Positions 49,893 to 59,357 of a stretch of 64,000 nucleotides of DNA are shown in pieces; position 1 is the first letter of the stretch, and every line of letters starts with the position of its first letter. The position numbers were made by a program, and so were the translations under genes. Under the pieces are notes generated by a model. It was not told the DNA's origin, made no database searches, and saw nothing but the letters and a program-made list of their open reading frames with translations. The stretch is from Rhizobium oryzihabitans (GTDB lineage: Bacteria > Pseudomonadota > Alphaproteobacteria > Rhizobiales > Rhizobiaceae), in the NCBI RefSeq assembly GCF_010669145.1, contig NZ_CP048632.1:2046001-2110000 (forward strand), given 5' to 3'.

Positions 49893-50608
49893 CGGCCGAG
49901 CCGATCCTGTCGGTGCGCGATGCCACCCGGCATTACCGCAGCGGCGACAGCATCGTCAAGGCGCTCGACGGGGTCTCGCTGGATATCAATGCCGGCGAGC
50001 TGGTTGCGATCCTCGGACCGAGCGGATCGGGAAAAAGCACGCTGCTTCTGATCGCCGGCCTGCTGGAGCCGCCAACCGAAGGCGAGGTGAGAATTCGCGG
50101 CGCCCTCGTTTCGAAGGCAGGAGAAGAGCTCGACAGGCTGCGCGACTTCCGACGACGTAATATCGGTTTCGTGTTTCAAAAGGCCAACCTCATTCCCTTC
50201 CTGACGGCTTCGGAAAATGTGGCGCTGGCAATGGAAATCGATGACGTGCCTGCCCGCGATGCCCGCCGCCACGCCGAGCGGCTGCTGGCAGGGCTCGGTC
50301 TCGGACATCGCATCGGCAATCGCCCATCGCGGCTTTCCGGCGGCGAACAGCAACGCGTGGCGATTGCCCGCGCTCTCGCCAACGATCCCACCCTCATCCT
50401 GGCGGACGAGCCGACCGCAGCGCTCGACGGTGTTCGCGGGCGTCAGGTGATCGAACTCTTCCGTCAGATTGCCGACACGAGGGGAGCCGGGATCGTGGTT
50501 GTGACACATGATCCCCGGTCGCTCGATCTCTTTGACCGGACGATCGAGCTGACCGATGGTCGCGTCGTCGGCGAACGAGCGGGGCCGGACCGCCTGCAGG
50601 TTCTCTGA
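49889..50608 (+). CDS. ABC exporter ATP-binding protein, LolD/DevA-like
   Basis: The 239-residue ATPase powers the FtsX-like permease. Walker A is [14 protein letters not shown], the Q-loop [19 protein letters not shown], the signature [17 protein letters not shown] and Walker [14 protein letters not shown]; the H-loop His is in [12 protein letters not shown]. It starts at a GTG overlapping the permease stop. The adaptor-permease-ATPase order matches DevBCA exporters, and the context of small secreted proteins suggests it handles an envelope or secreted product. The cognate substrate is unknown. Confidence 0.92.
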
Positions 50609-50678
50609 GTCCGGCCATGCAACAAAAAGCTACAAATTTCTACGTCCGCGAGATGGGCGAGCGATGTTCGGGGCCTAG

Positions 50679-52263
50679 CCTCGCGGTTGGAAGGCTCCGC
50701 AGTCGCGGTCCATCATCCCACATTCTCCAAGTAAGTCGCTGATTTCGCTGTCGTAATCGTGATATTTCGCATATAAATCATGGCGTTGACGGCTGCGAGG
50801 GGCGCGTTTCATGGATCACCTGGAGGGTGCGGGCTTGGCGCGGGGAGATCGGGTTGATTTCGACCGCCGTGTGCGTCTGGAGTTCCGTGGTGCGCAGATC
50901 AGTTCAGACGGTGGCCTGCTGGTGATGCGCGAGCTTGATGACGTGCTCGGCCTGTCCAATCTGGCGTCGGAGGCGCTGCGAGACAGCCGCACCGGGAAGA
51001 ACACGCTCCATCGGCTTGACGGATTGTTCCGGCAATCGGTGTTCGGACGACTGGCCGGATACGAGGATGTGAACGATGCCGACCGCTTGGCCCTCGATCC
51101 CGTGATGCGTCAGGTCGTTGGCGGCAGGGCCGTCGAGGCGCAAGCTGCTTCGGCATCGCAGATGGGACGGTTCGAGACCGAGACGCTGGCTCTGGCCGCG
51201 AACCGGGCGGCGCTGGCCGATCTGAACGGCCAATGGATCGACCGGTTTCATGACCGCAACGGGTTGAAATACATCGTGCTGGACATGGACAGCTCGGTCA
51301 GCCCCACCCACGGCGATCAGGAAGGTGCTGCCTGGAACGGGCATTTCGACTGCACCTGCTATCACCCCATCTTCTTGTTCAACCAGTTTGGCATGCTGGA
51401 GCGCTGCGCCCTGCGTAACGGCAATGTCCACAGCGCCGATGGCTGGCGGGATGTCCTTGATCCCGTCATTGCCCGATATGCTGGCCGCGACCTTGGTGGA
51501 CGCTTCTTCCGGGCCGACGCTGCCTACGCGATCCCCGCGATCTATATGCGGCTGGAAGAAGCCAGGTTCTTCTACGCCATCCGTCTGCCCGCCAACGCCG
51601 TCTTGCGCGAGAAGATCGCGCATCGGCTGACACGGCCCGTGGGACGGCCTTCGCTGACCAAGGTCAAACGGTTCTTCGAGGACTTCGAGTATCAGGCGGC
51701 GTCCTGGGACAAGCCGCGCCGCGTCATCGCCAAGATCGAATGGCATCCGGGCGAGCTGTTCCCCAAAGTCGGCTTCATCGTCACCAACCTGCCGATGGAG
51801 CCAGACTGGGTGGTGAGGTTCTACAACCAGCGCGGCACCGCAGAGCAGCACATCAAGGAAGGCAAATATGCCTTTCGCTGGACGCGGCTGTCATGCCGGA
51901 AGTTCCGGCACAACGAGGTGCGGCTGCAACTGCACGCGCTGGCCTACAACCTGGCAACCTTCCTGCGCTGCATCGAACTGCCCGAGGCCATGGCGGACTG
52001 GTCGTTGACCAGCCTGCAACTCAAGCTGATCAAGATCGGCGCCCGCGTCGTCCGCCACGCCCGCGCCATTACCTTCCAGTTGGCCGAGGTCGCCGTCACC
52101 GGCCCGATGGTGCGGGCCGTCCTTGCCGCCATCCGCCGTCTTCGAACGCCTCCGTCATGCGCATGACCACGATCCATGCCCAAGCTGAACGAAAGCGGCA
52201 GGACAGGTCCGTCTGCCGCGCGGAAAAGCGGCTCTGCCGGGCCAGAATGCTGCGGGTTCGAGG
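50679..52263 (+). mobile_element. IS1380-family insertion sequence (ends tentative)
   Basis: A single transposase gene fills an element of about 1.6 kb. Candidate ends are CCTCG at 50679 and its complement CGAGG at 52263, flanked by CTAG and CTTG, which would be a near 4-bp duplication. The ends are short and uncertain; the transposase is clear. Confidence 0.5.
50811..52166 (+). CDS. IS1380-family transposase
   Basis: The 451-residue DDE transposase resembles IS1380/IS1247-type enzymes. Recognised segments are RGAQISSDGGLLVMRELDD, the RNase H-like core with YIVLDMDSSVSPTHGDQEGA (first Asp), FFRADAAYAIPAIYMRLEE (second Asp), and YNQRGTAEQHIKEGKYAFRW with the catalytic Glu region. It is full length and looks intact, so the element may be active. 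The start ATG at 50811 has no strong ribosome-binding site, as is common. It separates the exporter genes from the two secreted protein genes that follow. Confidence 0.9.
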   Translation: MDHLEGAGLARGDRVDFDRRVRLEFRGAQISSDGGLLVMRELDDVLGLSNLASEALRDSRTGKNTLHRLDGLFRQSVFGRLAGYEDVNDADRLALDPVMRQVVGGRAVEAQAASASQMGRFETETLALAANRAALADLNGQWIDRFHDRNGLKYIVLDMDSSVSPTHGDQEGAAWNGHFDCTCYHPIFLFNQFGMLERCALRNGNVHSADGWRDVLDPVIARYAGRDLGGRFFRADAAYAIPAIYMRLEEARFFYAIRLPANAVLREKIAHRLTRPVGRPSLTKVKRFFEDFEYQAASWDKPRRVIAKIEWHPGELFPKVGFIVTNLPMEPDWVVRFYNQRGTAEQHIKEGKYAFRWTRLSCRKFRHNEVRLQLHALAYNLATFLRCIELPEAMADWSLTSLQLKLIKIGARVVRHARAITFQLAEVAVTGPMVRAVLAAIRRLRTPPSCA

Positions 52264-52405
52264 CTTGATCCACCCGACTTCGGCCGTTTGCGCGACGACA
52301 GACACCGCTCGGGGCGAAAAACGCTTGCCCAGCGAGCAAAATCAGGCGATCTTGAAGTCAAGCGGCAGGCCACTTGGGGAATGTCGGATCATAAGGGATA
52401 GGGAT

Positions 52406-53041
52406 ATGATCAAGAGATTATGCATCGCGATCGTCATGGTATTTGCCATGGCATCCATGGCTGCGGCGGCGACCGTTGCAGTTGCCACCGGCAACGTCAA
52501 TCTAAGGGCCGGACCCTCGACGGGATATCCTGTCGTTGTCGTCGTTCCGGTCGGCGCACGCATCGTCACCCATGGCTGTCTGCCGGGCTACACCTGGTGC
52601 GATATCGGTTTCGGCAGCTACCGGGGCTGGGTGTCGGCACGCTATGTTCAGGTGGTCTACAATGGTGCCCCGGTCGTCCTGTCGCCGGCCGTTGCCGCAA
52701 GTGTCGGGGTCGCCGTTGTTGCCTTCAACAAGGCCTATTGGGACAACCACTACGCCAGCTATCCCTGGTACTATCGCGGCCCCGCCTATTACGGCCAGGC
52801 GGCTCGCAGCTGCGGACCAAACGGCTGCTCCGGCACGGTAACAGGCCCCTATGGCGGCACCGCCTCCGGAGCCCGTGGATGCGGTCCCCGCGGCTGTGCT
52901 GGCGCTGGCACAATCATCGGCCCCAATGGGGGTAGTGTCCAGGGCGCCCGTAGATGCGGTCCCTATGGTTGTGTCGGCGGCTATCGCGCCGTCGGTCCGA
53001 ATGGCGGCACGCGAAGCGGCGCAGGGCATTTCCGTTGGTAA
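52406..53041 (+). CDS. Secreted SH3-domain protein with Gly-Pro-Asn-Gly/Cys repeats
   Basis: The 211-residue product has a signal peptide (IKRLCIAIVMVFAMASMAAA), a bacterial SH3 domain (GNVNLRAGPSTGYPVVVVVP to RGWVSARYVQV, residues about 28-80), a hydrophobic/Tyr-rich linker and a C-terminal repeat region: CGPNGCSGTVTGPYGGTASG, then CGPRGC, then CGPYGC. The repeat spacing is about 26-27 residues. The ATG at 52406 follows GGGATA, a weak ribosome-binding site. The N-terminal SH3 domain suggests cell-wall or envelope binding. The repeats resemble those of the small protein at 46225. The role is unknown. Confidence 0.8.
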   Translation: MIKRLCIAIVMVFAMASMAAAATVAVATGNVNLRAGPSTGYPVVVVVPVGARIVTHGCLPGYTWCDIGFGSYRGWVSARYVQVVYNGAPVVLSPAVAASVGVAVVAFNKAYWDNHYASYPWYYRGPAYYGQAARSCGPNGCSGTVTGPYGGTASGARGCGPRGCAGAGTIIGPNGGSVQGARRCGPYGCVGGYRAVGPNGGTRSGAGHFRW

Positions 53042-53053
53042 AGGAGACTGCCC

Positions 53054-53374
53054 ATGTCGTCTCACCGCGTGCGATGGACGCTGCTTTTATTGACGTTGTT
53101 TCTGGCTGGTGCTGGTCCGTTTGAACTGGCACTTGCCGGAATGGACGGCAGCGAATTCGAGGAAGAGCCGTTGGAATTTTTTTGCATCACGCCGGATGGC
53201 GGTCGGGGAGAGGTATGCGTGAGTCTCTATCTTGACGAGGATGGATACCAGGTCTGCCTTTCCGACGAGGCTGCCGAAACGGAACGCTGCGTGAGCTACT
53301 ATAGTCAACCGGACTATCCGGGCGATGACTACGATTCTCTAGCGACCTCAACCGTCCGCCTGATCGATTGCTAA
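53054..53374 (+). CDS. Small acidic secreted protein
   Basis: No family is recognised. The 106-residue product has a signal peptide (VRWTLLLLTLFLAGAGPFEL, ending near ALA-GM) and a very acidic mature part with five cysteines (FFCITPDGGRGEVCVSLYLD, VCLSDEAAETERCVSYYSQP and a final IDC). The ATG at 53054 follows AAGGAGA, 12 bases after the SH3-protein stop, so the two are co-transcribed. It ends just before the IS66 left end. A role as a cargo or partner of the SH3 protein is only a guess. Confidence 0.7.
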   Translation: MSSHRVRWTLLLLTLFLAGAGPFELALAGMDGSEFEEEPLEFFCITPDGGRGEVCVSLYLDEDGYQVCLSDEAAETERCVSYYSQPDYPGDDYDSLATSTVRLIDC

Positions 53375-53408
53375 CCCTCGGTACGGTTCTTATTCGTAAG
53401 CGCTGTTG

Positions 53409-54941
53409 TCAGGCCACGGCCCTGAACTCGGGAGCCTGAATGTAGGCCCAGGGGAGGAGATCGTCGATCTGGCTGTTGGGGTGGCCGTTGACGATCCTGG
53501 TGAGCACGTCGGCGAGGTAGCCGAGCGGCTCGACGCCGTTGAGCTTGCAGGTTTCGATCAGCGAAGCGACGACGGCCCAGTGCTCGGCGCCGCCATCCGA
53601 TCCAGCGAAGAGTGCATTCTTGCGGTTCAGCGCGATCGGGCGGATCGAGCGTTCGACGGTGTTGCTGTCGATCTCGATGCGACCGTCGTCGAGGAAGCGC
53701 GAGAGGCCATCCCGGCGCGAGAGCGTGTAGCGGATCGCCTCGGCGAGCTTTGTCTTCTGGCTGATCAGCTCGAGCTTCTCGCGCAGCCAGGGTACGAGAT
53801 CGGCGACGATCGGGAGGCTCTTTTCCTGGCGCACGGCACGACGCTGCTCCGCCGATCGTCCACGAATGTCATCTTCGATTCTGTAGAGCTCCGCGATCCG
53901 CCGGAGCGCCTCGCTGGCGATCGGCGCGGGACCGGCTGCGGCAAGTTCGTAGAAGCGGCGGCGCACATGTGCCCAGCAGAAGGCGAGCGTGGCACCGCTC
54001 TTGTCGGCGAGCACGCGATAGCCACCATAGCCGTCGACCTGCAGGATGCCAGTAAAGCCCGCCAGATGAGTGATCGGACGTTCGGCCTTTCGGTCCGGCG
54101 CATAGACATAGGCGACGCCCGGCGGGTCGGCTCCTTGCCACGGCCGATCATCGCGGGCATAGGCCCAGAGTTGCCCGGTCCTGGTCTTGCCACGGCCGGG
54201 ATCGAGCACCGGCGCCGTCGTCTCGTCGGCGAACAGTTTTGGCGAAGCCTTCAACTTCGCCAGCAGTCGCTCGTGCACCGGACGCAGGTGCCAGGCGGCG
54301 CGGCCGACCCAGTCGGCGAGCGTCGAGCGGTCGAGATTGATGCCCTGCCGGGCGTAGATCTGCGCCTGGCGATAGAGCGGCAGGTGATCGGCGTATTTGG
54401 AGACCAGCACCTGGGCGACGGTCGCATCGGTCGGCAGGCCGCCTTCGATCAGCCGGCCGGGAGCCGGAGCCTGAACGACCACATCGTCGCAGGCGCGGCA
54501 GGCGTATTTGGGCCGGCGCACCACGATCACGCGCAGCTGCGCCGGAACGATGTCGAGCCGCTCGCTCACATCCTCGCCGATCCGGTGCAGGCCATTGCGA
54601 CAGCACGGACAGACGTGATTGTCGATGTCGACGATCGTTTCGATGCGAGGCAGATGCGCCGGCAGCGCGCCACGGTTGGCTCGCCGCTTTGTGGCGCGCT
54701 CATTGCGTTCGCGCGGGTCGACACGTTCGGCCTCTTCCTCGCCGGCGGCCTCGATCTGCTCGGCCTCTTCGAGGCCCAGCAGCAACTGGTCTTCCGGCAG
54801 CGTCTCGGCGCGCCGGCCGAAGCGGTGACGCTGCAGTTCCCTGATGATCTGGATCAGCCGCGCATTCTCGACGTCGCGCGCCAGGACCATCGCCTTCAGC
54901 GCATCCGGATCGTCGGGAAGCTGGTCCGCCGTCATCGCCAT
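53409..54941 (-). CDS. tnpC: IS66-family transposase TnpC
   Basis: The 510-residue main IS66 transposase has an N-terminal coiled coil (RLIQIIRELQRHRFGRRAET), a zinc-finger region (VCPCCRNGLHRIGEDVSERL), the DDE core (ADETTAPVLDPGRGKTRTGQ, VDGYGGYRVLADKSGATLAF) and the C-terminal domain (SIRPIALNRKNALFAGSDGG). It is complete. The start ATG at 54941 lies after the tnpB remnant. It is expressed in the element orientation, but tnpB is broken by an insertion, so transposition of this copy is likely disabled unless helped in trans. Confidence 0.92.
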   Translation of the reverse strand: MAMTADQLPDDPDALKAMVLARDVENARLIQIIRELQRHRFGRRAETLPEDQLLLGLEEAEQIEAAGEEEAERVDPRERNERATKRRANRGALPAHLPRIETIVDIDNHVCPCCRNGLHRIGEDVSERLDIVPAQLRVIVVRRPKYACRACDDVVVQAPAPGRLIEGGLPTDATVAQVLVSKYADHLPLYRQAQIYARQGINLDRSTLADWVGRAAWHLRPVHERLLAKLKASPKLFADETTAPVLDPGRGKTRTGQLWAYARDDRPWQGADPPGVAYVYAPDRKAERPITHLAGFTGILQVDGYGGYRVLADKSGATLAFCWAHVRRRFYELAAAGPAPIASEALRRIAELYRIEDDIRGRSAEQRRAVRQEKSLPIVADLVPWLREKLELISQKTKLAEAIRYTLSRRDGLSRFLDDGRIEIDSNTVERSIRPIALNRKNALFAGSDGGAEHWAVVASLIETCKLNGVEPLGYLADVLTRIVNGHPNSQIDDLLPWAYIQAPEFRAVA

Positions 54942-55010
54942 GAGCGGATCAGACCATATTCGCCGGCACCGGGCGACCGTGGAATCCGGGCTGATTCACT
55001 TGGTCGCGGA

Positions 55011-55163
55011 TCAACCCGCCTGCGCCGGAACGCGCGTCGGGCGGGCTTCATGGACCCGTCGCCAGTCGAGACCTTCGAGCAGCGCCGACAGCTGCGCGGC
55101 GGTCAGCCGCATGATCCCGTCCTGCACCTTCGGCCAGCGGAACTCGCCATCCTCCAGCCGCTT
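55011..55163 (-). pseudogene. tnpB: TnpB C-terminal fragment of IS66
   Basis: The fragment codes for KRLEDGEFRWPKVQDGIMRL and on to the stop (RPTRVPAQAG). It is the C-terminal part of TnpB, cut from its N-terminus by the inserted element. The N-terminal part lies at 58544-58749. Confidence 0.9.
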
Positions 55164-55219
55164 GTACCTCATCTGAGAATGCAGCCCCGACCAGCGCAGG
55201 TCAGCAGTTAGTGCGGGTC

Positions 55220-55462
55220 ATGCACCCGTTTCATCCCCTTTTTGGACAACAGCTTCCTTGCGTCGGCGAGCGAGCTAACTCGCAGGGCAAACGTTTGCTG
55301 TTGCAGACCGAGGATGCCACCGTTTGGTCCGTTCCCCCGCAATGGACTGACCTTATGAGCCCAGATCCTGAAGTTGTCATGGGTAACGGACGGTCGCTCT
55401 TGCGGGTCGCCGACTTAATGGAATTGGCCGCCCTGGTAGAGCGCCTTTCCAGAACACGATGA
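55220..55462 (+). CDS. Small DUF5372-like protein of the recombinase element
   Basis: The approximately 80-residue product (HPFHPLFGQQLPCVGERANS at the start, then WSVPPQWTDLMSPDPEVVMG) resembles the DUF5372 group that I recall next to transposases and recombinases in rhizobia. There is no membrane segment. Start ATG 55220 or GTG 55211; no good ribosome-binding site is visible. It is first in the element, followed after about 175 bases by the helix-turn-helix gene. The family name is from memory and would need a profile search; the function is unknown. Confidence 0.7.
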   Translation: MHPFHPLFGQQLPCVGERANSQGKRLLLQTEDATVWSVPPQWTDLMSPDPEVVMGNGRSLLRVADLMELAALVERLSRTR

Positions 55463-55637
55463 TGGGCAGAGCTGTAAAGATAAATATGCCGCATCTGTAA
55501 AGCTGATTATGCCGCATGGGTCTTATTTTCGTGGAATTTATCCCGCAATTACAGGGCTTATCTAATGCTAAATCATGAGGGTTGCCTTGACGAGGCAGTA
55601 AAATGCGTCATAATTAGCATTACGATAACGCCGCTTC

Positions 55638-56117
55638 ATGTCCTCGGAGCCATCGATGTCTGCGAAGTACGACAGCAAGCGCACAAAGACGGATGTCCTC
55701 ATCGAAGAGGGCACGTTCAATCCCACCCCCGAGAAGGTGCGCGATCCAAAGTTCCGGGGCAGCGAGTTCTTCGATCCGCACGACGCCGTGCAGGTCAAAT
55801 ACGAGATGCTGCGGCGCGTCTCCATCGACAAGGTGTCGGTGACGGAGGCCTCCGACGAGTACGGTGTTTCCAGGCCGACCTACTACCAGGCCAAGGTGAA
55901 CTTCGATATGGCCGGGATTGCCGGACTAGTGCCGACAAAGCCGGGGCCCCGCGGTCCCCACAAGATCGACGACAAGGTCGTGGCATTTCTGCGGGCGCAG
56001 CTCGCTCCAGGAGAACCCGTTCGCGCCCGGGAACTTGCCAAGCTGCTCCGCCAGGAACTCGATATCGAGCTTCATCCCAGATCGATCGAGCGGGTTCTAA
56101 AAAAAAGCGGCAGGTAA
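55638..56117 (+). CDS. Helix-turn-helix protein of the recombinase element
   Basis: The 159-residue product has two predicted helix-turn-helix parts: KVSVTEASDEYGVSRPTYYQ in the middle and VRARELAKLLRQELDIELHP with RSIERVLKKSG at the end. It resembles the DNA-binding N-terminal part of IS transposases (IS481/IS630 type) without a catalytic domain. The start ATG at 55638 may be replaced by ATG 55656. It probably binds the element ends or regulates the recombinase gene, 293 bases downstream. It is coded between the DUF5372-like gene and the recombinase. Confidence 0.75.
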   Translation: MSSEPSMSAKYDSKRTKTDVLIEEGTFNPTPEKVRDPKFRGSEFFDPHDAVQVKYEMLRRVSIDKVSVTEASDEYGVSRPTYYQAKVNFDMAGIAGLVPTKPGPRGPHKIDDKVVAFLRAQLAPGEPVRARELAKLLRQELDIELHPRSIERVLKKSGR

Positions 56118-56409
56118 ACCTTGCCGCGACGGCGGCATGCCCGATCCTACCGTCGACCATCGCGTCCCAGTACGAGGTCTTGCGCAAGGCTGCTCTCGGC
56201 GCAGCGCTGCCACTTATGGCCCGTAGTGGCCTGATGCTCTTTTTGCGCCGGGGCATGTGGGGATGGGCTCAGACGCTGACCGCAACAGCAAGCACCCCGC
56301 GAGAGCAGAATTACCCATCGTCAATTGCTTGGCCGCTGCACCGCGGACACAGCGCCGTCGTTCACGTCCTTGCGACAATCGCCATGAGCATCAACGATCG
56401 GAGATCACG

Positions 56410-58509
56410 ATGAATGTACATCTCAAAGTCCAGCCTCATCACCTCGAACGCAGCGCCTACCTCTACATCCGCCAATCTTCGATGCGGCAAGTCATCGACA
56501 ATACCGAGAGCGCCATGCGGCAATATGCGCTTCGCGGGCGCGCTATCGCCCTTGGTTGGCGCGAGGAGCAGATTATCGTCATCGATAGCGATCAAGGTGA
56601 ATCCGGCGCATCGGCGGTCTGGCGTGAGGGATTTCAGCGGCTGGTCAGCGATGTCGGCATGGGACATGCCGGGATCGTCATGGGCCTGGAGGTCTCCCGT
56701 CTGGCGCGCAACAATGCCGACTGGCAGCGTCTACTCGAGATCTGCGCCCTTGCTGACACCCTGATCCTCGACGAGGACGGTGTCTATGACCCGGCAAGTT
56801 TCAACGACCGGCTCCTGCTCGGCTTGAAGGGAACAATGAGTGAGGCCGAACTGCATGTGATCAAGGCGCGGCTGCGCGGCGGCATCCTCAATAAGGCCCG
56901 GCGTGGCGAGTTCCGTTGCCCGCTGCCAACCGGGCTGGTCTATGACCACTCCGGCAATGTAACGCTTGATCCGGACATGCAAGTCAGAGAGACGATCGCC
57001 CATTTCTTCGAGACGTTCTCTCGCGTCGGATCCGCCTCCCAGACCGTCAAGGCCTTTCGGCAGGAAGGCATTCTCTTTCCCTCTCGCTTGCACGACAGCC
57101 AGACGGTTTTCCGGCCACTGACGCCTTCGACGGCGATGCGCGTGCTGCACAATCCACGTTACGCCGGAGCCTATGCCTATGGCCGCCGTCGCTATCGACG
57201 AACCATCGATGGCAAAAAGCTCGTGCGCAAACAAGGTAGTGACGATTGGACAGCATGCATTCCAGATGCCCATCCCGGCTACATCAGTTGGGAGCAACAT
57301 CAGGAGAACCTGAGGATTCTGAAGTCGAACATCTGCCATAAATGGAACGCGGCGGTCGCATCACCTCCGCGGGAAGGCCCGGCGCTGCTGCAGGGGCGCG
57401 CCGTGTGTGGGCAATGCGGCAGGCATTTTCACATGCGCTACGCTGCCCGACGCGGTCGGCAGGAAGCCTGGTACGTTTGTGATCGCGCCCGTACCAATCG
57501 CGGTGAACCCCTCTGCCAGGCGATCGCTGCACCTCCTGTTGACGAAGCCATCGGCATGCTGATCGCCGAGCAGATGACGCCGGCAGCCATCGAACTGGCG
57601 ATTGAAGTCCGCAAAGAGATCGAAGCGCGACATGAAGAGGCGGACCGGCTGCGCTGTCGCGCAATCGAGCGCGCGCAAACGGAAGCCGATCTCGCCCAGC
57701 GCCGTTTCATGCTCGTCGATCCCAATAACCGCCTCGTCGCCGACACGCTCGAAGGCGAATGGAACGAGAAGCTCCGCATCTTGGCTAATGCCCGCGAAGA
57801 GCGCGAGCGCGGCTGGGAGCACGATCAATTCATCCTCGATAAGGCCGTCTACGAGCGGTTGGTCGCAATGACGGCGGACTTCAAAAAACTCTGGACCAAC
57901 CCAGAGACCCCGAACCGCGAACGAAAGCGCTTGCTTGCCCACATCATTGAGGACGTCACCCTCCTCAAACTACCGAAGAGAGGCACAACCAAGGCTCATA
58001 TTCGCTTCAAAGGCGGCAAAACCCAGACACTCGTCACCATCAGCCCAAAATCGCCCAGCCAGCAGGTCAAGACGAACCCCGACATCATTGCACTGATCGA
58101 TAAGCTCCTCGACGATCATATTTTTTCCGAGATCGCCGACATTCTCAACAATCAGGGATACCGTCCGGGCTCGGTGACGCGCCGTGACCAGCGCAACGCC
58201 CGCTTCACAACCAAACGCGTCACCTATCTTGTTCGCGAATACAAGCTGAGATCACGCTATGACCGGCTCCGGGATCGTGGGATGTTGACAAAGAAGGAGG
58301 CGGCTGCACACCTCAATATCCATGAGCATACCCTCGCCAGATGGGCTGAACATGGCCTCGTCACCAGCCATGCCTACAACGGACACTACTACCTGTACGA
58401 GCTTCCGAAGACAGATTTACCGCAAAAGCAATCCAGTCGATGGAACCAGCTCGTCGATCGCCTCGCCGCTCATAAGGAAAATGCCAGCCAAGCCAAAACC
58501 TTCAACTGA
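56410..58509 (+). CDS. Large serine recombinase of the inserted element, with C-terminal MerR-like domain
   Basis: The 699-residue recombinase starts with the resolvase domain (AYLYIRQSSMRQ; catalytic Ser23), then GMGHAGIVMGLEVSRLARNN. The recombinase domain includes YAGAYAYGRRRYRRTIDGKK and a zinc-ribbon-like CGQCGRHFHM with the later CDRARTNRGEPLC. A coiled coil follows (about residues 400-480), and the C-terminus carries a MerR-type helix-turn-helix (TKKEAAAHLNIHEHTLARWA). The ATG at 56410 is the natural start, with GGAGATCACG upstream. It probably moved the whole element into tnpB. The stop lies about 35 bases from the right end. Confidence 0.9.
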   Translation: MNVHLKVQPHHLERSAYLYIRQSSMRQVIDNTESAMRQYALRGRAIALGWREEQIIVIDSDQGESGASAVWREGFQRLVSDVGMGHAGIVMGLEVSRLARNNADWQRLLEICALADTLILDEDGVYDPASFNDRLLLGLKGTMSEAELHVIKARLRGGILNKARRGEFRCPLPTGLVYDHSGNVTLDPDMQVRETIAHFFETFSRVGSASQTVKAFRQEGILFPSRLHDSQTVFRPLTPSTAMRVLHNPRYAGAYAYGRRRYRRTIDGKKLVRKQGSDDWTACIPDAHPGYISWEQHQENLRILKSNICHKWNAAVASPPREGPALLQGRAVCGQCGRHFHMRYAARRGRQEAWYVCDRARTNRGEPLCQAIAAPPVDEAIGMLIAEQMTPAAIELAIEVRKEIEARHEEADRLRCRAIERAQTEADLAQRRFMLVDPNNRLVADTLEGEWNEKLRILANAREERERGWEHDQFILDKAVYERLVAMTADFKKLWTNPETPNRERKRLLAHIIEDVTLLKLPKRGTTKAHIRFKGGKTQTLVTISPKSPSQQVKTNPDIIALIDKLLDDHIFSEIADILNNQGYRPGSVTRRDQRNARFTTKRVTYLVREYKLRSRYDRLRDRGMLTKKEAAAHLNIHEHTLARWAEHGLVTSHAYNGHYYLYELPKTDLPQKQSSRWNQLVDRLAAHKENASQAKTFN

Positions 58510-58543
58510 GTGCGAAAGAGAGATGCAGTATGAATGCAGATCG

Positions 58544-58749
58544 TTCGCATAGAGGCAGACGCCGGTGCCGTCCCAGAAGATCAGCTTGATCCGGTCCGTG
58601 CGCTTGGCACGGAAGACATAGACCGCACCGCTGAACGGATCGGCGCCCATCGTCTCGCGCACCAGCGCGGCCAGCCCCTCCGCGCCTTTGCGGAAGTCCA
58701 CCGGCTTTGTCGCCACCATGACCTTGACGGCGCCAGTCGGCCCGATCAC
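58544..58749 (-). pseudogene. tnpB: TnpB N-terminal fragment of IS66
   Basis: The fragment begins at a GTG overlapping the tnpA stop and reads IGPTGAVKVMVATKPVDFRK, then FRAKRTDRIKLIFWDGTGVC, up to LYA where the insertion begins. The remaining TnpB codons are at 55011-55163. Confidence 0.9.
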
Positions 58750-59192
58750 GACGTTGCCTTCAACGCACGGATCACCGTCGCAACCGTCCTGGCGTCGGCG
58801 CCACGGCCGACCCGCATCGCAACGCCGTCGATCTCCAGCTCGATCACGCCGGCGTCTGGCGCGGCCTTCCGCTTCCGCGTCGATCTCGCGCGCTTCCCCG
58901 ACGGTTCAGGCTCCGGCGCCGCAATCACCGCCGGAACAAACAATGGCTCCGGTGCCGGCGCTCCCGCCAATGGCTGACGCGCGGCCCGACGCCAGGCGAA
59001 CAACTGCTGCGGGGACAATGCATATCGCCGGGCCACTGCGCTCACGGTCTCGCCGGCATCGTAGCTTTCCGCCACGATCCGAGCCTTCTCCTCCGGCAAC
59101 CATTCGCGCCTCCGGCCGGAACCCGTGAAAACCTCGAACCGCCGCGCGGGCTCAGGATCGCTGGATTTAAGCGTAAACTCTGAAATCGTCAT
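58746..59192 (-). CDS. tnpA: IS66-family protein TnpA
   Basis: The 148-residue TnpA-type protein has a helix-turn-helix (EKARIVAESYDAGETVSAVA, RRYALSPQQLFAWRRAARQP) and a proline/alanine-rich linker to a short conserved C-terminus (IELEIDGVAMRVGRGADART). It is needed with TnpB and TnpC for IS66 movement. It overlaps the tnpB start (GTGA). Its start codon is about 75 bases from the IS66 right end. The gene is intact. Confidence 0.9.
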   Translation of the reverse strand: MTISEFTLKSSDPEPARRFEVFTGSGRRREWLPEEKARIVAESYDAGETVSAVARRYALSPQQLFAWRRAARQPLAGAPAPEPLFVPAVIAAPEPEPSGKRARSTRKRKAAPDAGVIELEIDGVAMRVGRGADARTVATVIRALKATS

Positions 59193-59341
59193 GTGTCGAA
59201 GCCCTCAAAGGCTCCGAACATCGTCGCTCACGACCACGCGCGAAAGGTGCCGCCGGAACAGCGCTTACGCTCAAACCACTTTCAGGCGTCATTTTGTAGG
59301 GCTATAGCGTAAGCGTAGTGATCATCACTATCGGTCGCGGC

Positions 59342-59357
59342 CCGCCATTTCACGCCA
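59342..59357. repeat. 16-bp direct repeat copy 1 (attR-like)
   Basis: CCGCCATTTCACGCCA is repeated exactly at 61561-61576. Its first part matches the tRNA-Ser end (CCGCCACTTCA at 37053). It may be the right end of the main element or of an earlier insertion. Confidence 0.6.

Follow-up and report, generated by a model that had tools for sequence, protein, structure and literature searches.

A serine-recombinase element in a conserved codon of IS66 tnpB and its relatives in other transposon genes

The integrases of helper-embedded satellites (HE-PICI) make up a single clade divided into subclades, each with its own site in the genes of another mobile element, and in the account of Tommasini et al. 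(2023; PMC10111431) these sites lie in prophage late genes. In rhizobia, the group II intron RmInt1 resides in the insertion sequence (IS) ISRm2011-2 and may restrain this host IS (PMC4238363). HE-PICI are the nearest concept, and RmInt1 the nearest case in rhizobia, for the element described here, which interrupts the tnpB gene of an IS66 in a 64,000-nucleotide stretch of Rhizobium oryzihabitans DNA that was analysed as a whole (the window; Table 1). It differs from the HE-PICI of that account in its enzyme, a serine recombinase, and in the hosts of its group, which are IS elements and group II introns. It resembles RmInt1 as a rhizobial mobile element inside an IS, but RmInt1 spreads by RNA-based retrohoming, whereas the present element would move by site-specific DNA recombination, and Pfam finds no reverse transcriptase domain in its three proteins.

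Like the integrative elements of large serine recombinases (LSRs), i.e., phage integrases and TnpX/TndX-type transposases, the element combines the Resolvase-Recombinase-zinc ribbon domain order with a 2-bp core, no terminal inverted repeats and insertion into a conserved gene, and judged from its sequence it has all LSR features that could be tested. It differs from them in being only 3.4 kb long with three genes, in having a codon of a transposon gene as its target and in its MerR/HTH_17-like C-terminus. The IS607 family likewise joins a serine catalytic domain to a MerR-like DNA-binding domain, with the MerR-like domain preceding the catalytic one. In the window recombinase that order is not found: the catalytic domain comes first, the helix-turn-helix (HTH) is C-terminal and the target is fixed, whereas IS607 transposases are described as having an inverted domain order and little target specificity (PMC4058570). 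The survey by Durrant et al. (2022; PMC10083194) reports LSR groups aimed at one gene family, and DUF4368 in 63% of the clade of TndX/TnpX-like multi-targeting LSRs, whereas DUF4368 is not among the Pfam matches of the window recombinase at E 0.001; the terms 'IS66' and 'insertion sequence' are absent from the main text of the survey, supplements apart. Within the open-licence PMC literature, supplements and subscription journals set aside, no description of such an element was recognised, and no paper was found to name a serine recombinase along with DUF5372, the domain of one of its proteins; 'large serine recombinase' and IS66 do co-occur there, in two papers.

Ends, core and target codon

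The insertion is confirmed as an earlier note on the window had described it. The left junction reads CAGCCGC-TT-GTACCTCATC and the right one AATGCAGATCG-TT-CGCATAGAGG, and the removable unit is 3,382 bp, i.e., one of the two TT copies and the 3,380 bp at 55164-58543. When the flanks are joined at a single TT, the TnpB frame GVCLYA[K]RLEDGEFRW is open, which bears out the exact excision scar claimed before. The joined flanks match an uninterrupted tnpB on plasmid pUSP2 of Aminobacter sp. MSH1 at 91.2% over all 501 bp, with the same 16 letters around TT at the junction (CAGCCGCTTCGCATAG), and another on a Mesorhizobium loti plasmid at 91.0% over 501 bp (junction GCTTGGCATAG), so the empty site exists on both plasmids. 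The plasmid search with the joined flanks gave 20 records, four of which span at least 80% of the query; among 199 genomes of the family 65 had some match, and the two best matches in other family genomes run without a break along almost all of the query. Since element-free IS66 genes read through the site, a natural difference of IS66 at this place does not explain the gap.

The cleanest proof of the ends comes from Rhizobium sp. C104, in which the copies on plasmids g and f (L144 and L062; L numbers denote loci) are identical over 3,386 bp, the identity ending exactly at TT on both sides with 0 bp beyond, and the tnpB flanks differ. Plasmid a holds a third copy, with a length difference of 2 bp. 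Rhizobium lusitanum P1-7 carries identical 3,388-bp copies on three contigs that each break at one element end, and the flanks that can be compared (one side or none per pair) are different tnpB alleles. A Shinella contig of 3,391 bp holds the element and a few further bases (L007, 1-3391), as a repeat with several copies would look once collapsed.

Alignment of the element ends alone placed TT at 24/24 left and 24/25 right junctions, counts in which several loci are one insertion counted twice. The expectation that the shared bases are always TT thus held at all but one aligned junction, and none of them had the longer target duplication that would have spoken against the insertion. The core is common to both ends and to the empty site, in keeping with the proposed 2-bp crossover of serine recombinases. 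A core count with free-dinucleotide patterns was discarded in favour of the end alignment: chance matches were mixed in (4 of 43 left and 10 of 47 right matches were not TT), the printed left and several right non-TT cases stood elsewhere than at the ends, for instance on the start codon of the recombinase, and the correct end of L035 was missed. Among the best 25 of 35 repeat pairs none is a terminal inverted repeat of the element, in agreement with the first description. The same-orientation subterminal copies of GAATGCAG stand in the window; in relatives, end alignments show the left copy mostly retained and the right one often degenerate.

Relatives down to about 64% protein identity again sit at this Lys codon (LYxK-R/K-LE), in many tnpB genes that differ from one another. 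Strict end patterns found 38 left and 39 right ends with 32 and 29 distinct flanks, respectively, and in 30 of the 32 left and all 29 right flanks the letters read as tnpB with that codon at the junction, beyond chance. Because these patterns themselves include TT, the core was tested separately by the end alignment. The surroundings of the codon vary widely, e.g., GVCLYA-K-RLEDGEF, GACLFT-K-KLERGRF, GFWLMT-K-RLEASRF and GLVMAY-K-RLEEHTF. When the flanks of 57 family loci were scored by tblastn, a TnpB piece stood at the right junction in 36 of 42 and at the left junction in 34 of 38 loci with enough flank, and also on the right of L034; the left end is lost in L008-L011. The longest frame across the junction was TnpB with Lys at the join in 13 of the 18 two-ended loci. 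On this evidence the element is a specialist for one conserved tnpB codon. The earlier note had missed more than it saw, namely that many tnpB alleles unrelated to each other are entered at one codon and that other transposon genes have subclades of their own.

The element had matches in 48 plasmid records, 35 of them with one place spanning at least 80% of the element, mostly in Rhizobium. A search of one genome per species gave 46 distinct loci in Rhizobium, Ensifer, Aureimonas, Consotaella, Shinella, Leisingera, Paracoccus, Burkholderia and Paraburkholderia, and in metagenome-assembled genomes (MAGs) labelled Acidobacteriota and Elusimicrobia, while a protein search returned at least 7,998 recombinase homologues.

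Several observations weigh against an LSR-borne element with this codon as its attB. Under the tblastn criteria six right (L024, L026, L031, L039, L062, L104) and four left flanks (L043, L046, L048, L104) gave no TnpB match; among these, L062 has an annotated tnpB at the junction, L039 a short TnpB piece and L104 a tnpB recognised by eye. In 5 of the 18 two-ended loci the longest junction frame is not TnpB. The left flanks of L043 and L048, both with AAG at the core, are not IS66: next to the left end with TT lies an alpha/beta-hydrolase-like frame in Paracoccus (L043, position 1040) and a frame of no assigned family on a MAG contig (L048, position 3180). These are therefore either off-target insertions, in which case the target is not absolute, or contig rearrangements. 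The right end of L012 lacks TT and reads GATCG-AAG; a small deletion between short repeats is likely there, because the tnpB of L012 carries its own GATCGAAG nearby. The element is also single-copy in the window genome, which has one recombinase copy, one DUF5372 and three TnpB profile matches, two from the halves and one from a further, intact tnpB.

Orientation, mechanism and alternative explanations

If the 2-bp core of a serine recombinase is non-palindromic, the element can insert in one orientation only; a palindromic core permits both. Because TT is not its own complement, only one orientation in tnpB is possible, and every TnpB piece scored by tblastn in the TT group was antisense to the recombinase. 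In a related group with the palindromic core GC at a site in IS66 tnpC (tnpC-1, described below), the motifs place 13 distinct loci in antisense and 3 in sense, and GC is bordered by the same tnpC-1 element ends whichever the orientation (L012, L002 and L093 versus L092 and L095). GC stands at most printed tnpC-1 junctions; one junction of L069, with AC, and that of L075, with GG, do not fit. One orientation for TT and both for GC is what a 2-bp crossover predicts. In the IS3 group the shared letters are TACAA or TATAA, which does not fix the core.

It is very probable that the element is LSR-borne and integrative and has a conserved codon of IS66 tnpB as its attB, and we are equally confident that it moves through site-specific recombination by the window LSR; direct support comes from the exact ends, the 2-bp core, the empty sites, the one codon across alleles and the identical copies in different tnpB genes. 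By cutting at TT with a 2-bp stagger the recombinase would release the element in circular form, and the circle would insert at another tnpB that offers TT (AA on the coding strand, within the Lys codon) in a matching sequence, so that each insertion would break tnpB and each excision restore it. Speculatively, the C-terminal HTH and/or one of the small proteins might set the direction or help in target binding. The recombinase is probably enough for site choice, because subclades without DUF5372 and HTH (in annotated examples) keep fixed sites.

The common site could have been inherited instead of targeted if one ancient insertion in an IS66 ancestor had spread by IS66 transposition and host descent. 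Carriage with host DNA does occur: the element, the complete IS66 and further DNA of the window recur at 100% in Aureimonas sp. SK2 and Consotaella salsifontis. However, elements that are 100%, 99.94% and 98-99% identical sit in clearly different tnpB alleles, which contradicts inheritance of the site, and uninterrupted tnpB genes about 91% identical to that of the window exist; we regard a single ancient insertion as highly unlikely. An assembly or annotation artefact, which the loci on MAG contigs or ending inside the element might suggest, is scarcely conceivable and is refuted by finished records, in which complete plasmids carry the element with the same ends.

A target preference set by DUF5372 or the HTH protein, and not by the LSR, finds support in the fact that both accompany the tnpB-type enzyme, in 36 of 46 loci each (four DUF5372 and one HTH partial), with many of the other loci being truncated contigs. 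Yet the IS3 orfB, tnpC and istB subclades, without either protein in annotated examples, have sites that are equally fixed, and the targets track the recombinase tree, which makes targeting by the small proteins unlikely. The exact frame that excision gives could alternatively mean that the insertion is a domesticated, reversible switch of tnpB that benefits IS66 or the host cell, and RmInt1 reportedly curbs how far its rhizobial host IS spreads (PMC4238363). The copies are, however, spread over different tnpB alleles and plasmids in a selfish-like manner and related subclades occupy unrelated transposons, and we consider a domesticated switch quite improbable beside recombination by a selfish LSR element.

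The wider recombinase clade

Distant recombinases of about 30-40% identity have the same architecture and a C-terminal HTH-like stretch, and their targets were assigned from the DNA that flanks the element left and right. Both halves of a target (divided here by a slash) were found for IS66 tnpC site 1, ERxIRxxA/LxRK (L002, L012, L069, L075, L092, L095/L096), tnpC site 2, LFAGSDxGA/ (L008, L078), IS3 orfB, WRxxYN/xxRPHSSLG (L055, L064, L065, L094; right half only in L053 and L063), the Walker A motif of IS21 istB (L066, L079), the istB motif IGDP (L081; right half in L071) and xDIxxxFD of group II intron reverse transcriptases (L070, L072, L098). One clear side each points to a second tnpB site (L068) and to a reverse transcriptase (L074).

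In a breadth sample ('how REPRESENTATIVE') of 13 plasmid loci chosen by us (L063-L075), a transposon target was assignable in 12, with L068 and L074 one-sided and weak, and not in L073. In a wider set of 26 loci from class and phylum searches (L076-L102 minus the copy in the window, only the top two to three candidates per genome being scored), nine were given a transposon target (L078, L079, L081, L092-L096, L098). Several of the remaining loci are truncated or lie beside ordinary genes; the right-flank open reading frames (ORFs) of L083, L099 and L100 match nucleoside hydrolase, peptidase M15 and an amylase-related domain, respectively. L073 adjoins an IS5-type transposase and L097 an IS91-type domain, and no target was assigned from either. 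The transposon-targeting guild is real; we do not claim a transposon-only habit for the whole clade.

The targets follow the recombinase phylogeny. In a tree of 59 recombinases, i.e., author-chosen representatives minus near-copies and fragments, with 14 rows lacking a known target, the 21 tnpB-codon rows fall on one side of a branch (100/100), and a single branch likewise separates each of four other sets, namely 8 tnpC-1, 5 IS3, 2 tnpC-2 and 2 istB-IGDP rows; the istB-Walker and reverse transcriptase rows need two changes each. All target labels together require 10 changes (minimum 8) compared with a shuffled mean of 34.1, and 0 of 200 shuffles were as low; 12 forks are open, and a long-branch warning applies to rows including L046, L074, L068 and L101.

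We find it reasonably likely that a guild of serine-recombinase hyperparasites radiated by switching among codons for conserved motifs of transposon genes, i.e., LYxK-R/K-LE of TnpB, ERxIRxxA and LFAGSDxGA of TnpC, YN in WRxxYNxxRPH of OrfB, Walker A and IGDP of IstB, and xDIxxxFD of the reverse transcriptase. To such a guild, conserved protein motifs would offer predictable attB sites in abundant selfish DNA, a choice also made by inteins and homing elements, and its insertions should restrain the spread of host transposons until excision. The element and several of its relatives look like specialised parasites of parasites, which would add serine recombinases to the mobile elements living on mobile elements and raises the question whether insertion restrains IS66, IS3, IS21 or group II introns. 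With a compact element of known ends, empty sites and many natural insertion alleles, LSR target choice can be read from nature, and dozens of diverged attB sites for one enzyme family, together with related enzymes of another core and site, provide data on how LSR specificity changes.

Some loci show further associations. One IS66 carries two LSR elements, of the tnpB type and the tnpC type (L008, L009, L011, L012). In L072 an IS630-type transposase gene also lies on the left side of the element. In a Streptomyces plasmid (L074, 3101-3349), DUF5372 lies directly 5' of a 908-aa clade recombinase, and the flanks resemble a split reverse transcriptase. In L090 (676-1137) a tnpB frame ending at a C-terminal FEGI adjoins a clade element and is perhaps a third tnpB site.

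Genes of the element and its host IS66

Pfam bears out the three-gene content given in the earlier note. The recombinase has PF00239 at residues 16-167, PF07508 at 194-306 and PF13408 at 326-381, i.e., the LSR order. The catalytic Ser motif of LSRs is Y-x-R-x-S; the window protein has YIRQSS, and Y19, R21, Q22 and S23 are nearly invariant in a 17-row alignment, in which row L072 has a non-homologous N-terminus. The MerR-like C-terminal domain noted before gets no Pfam call in the window protein at E 0.001, but part of the listed homologues carry PF12728 (HTH_17) as its annotation; the HTH_17/MerR-like stretch lies at about residues 622-668. The predicted fold of DUF5372 is a small beta-barrel with a C-terminal helix (mean predicted local distance difference test score 88), for which no PDB match had E <= 0.001 and Tudor/SH3-like matches were weak.

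The recombinase stop lies 35 bp short of the right core; at the other end, 48 bp separate the left core from the DUF5372 start. The DUF5372 and HTH genes may be dispensable, because annotated examples of clade members in IS3, tnpC and istB have only an ORF of about 60 aa, with no Pfam family above cut-off, and the recombinase; the label of a minimal autonomous element could not be confirmed on this ground. DUF5372, the HTH protein and the fused C-terminal HTH are candidates for a recombination directionality factor.

Table 1. Features of the element and its host IS66 in the window
Feature	Position	Strand	Basis
Whole element including both TT cores	55162..58545	+	window sequence, joined frame, empty site, identical copies
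Left core TT, AA of Lys codon AAG of tnpB	55162..55163	.	window letters, end alignments, identical copies
Left subterminal GAATGCAG	55177..55184	+	end alignments
DUF5372 protein, 83 aa, GTG start	55211..55462	+	PF17342, E 5.8e-20
HTH protein, 159 aa	55638..56117	+	PF13518, E 7.9e-7
LSR, 699 aa	56410..58509	+	Resolvase, Recombinase, zinc ribbon, C-terminal HTH_17/MerR-like
Right subterminal GAATGCAG	58532..58539	+	end alignments
Right core TT	58544..58545	.	window letters, end alignments, identical copies
3' part of split IS66 tnpB	55011..55161	-	end taken from joined frame
5' part of split IS66 tnpB	58546..58749	-	ORF, Pfam, joined frame
tnpA of host IS66	58746..59192	-	ORF, Pfam
tnpC (transposase) of host IS66, intact, two clade target sites empty	53409..54941	-	ORF, Pfam

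The window is identical at 50410-59347 to Consotaella salsifontis over at least 8.9 kb and to Aureimonas sp. SK2 over about 6 kb (L006, L005), i.e., past both IS66 ends, which marks the IS66 region, as far as sequence identity tells, as a recent transfer between genera. The inverted ends of IS66 lie near 53395 and 59269, and by eye the adjoining 8 bases are unlike. Transposition of IS66 and element as a composite with its own target duplication could not be shown, because the bases at the ends differ and the DNA shared with Consotaella and Aureimonas overruns both ends. An IS66 with passenger genes, which would have tnpA, tnpB and tnpC intact, was ruled out by the interrupted tnpB coding frame. 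Between the DUF5372 and HTH genes lies a tandem pair of a 23-bp unit (CTGTAAAG...ATGCCGCAT, 87%; window 55472-55517), which could be a regulator site.

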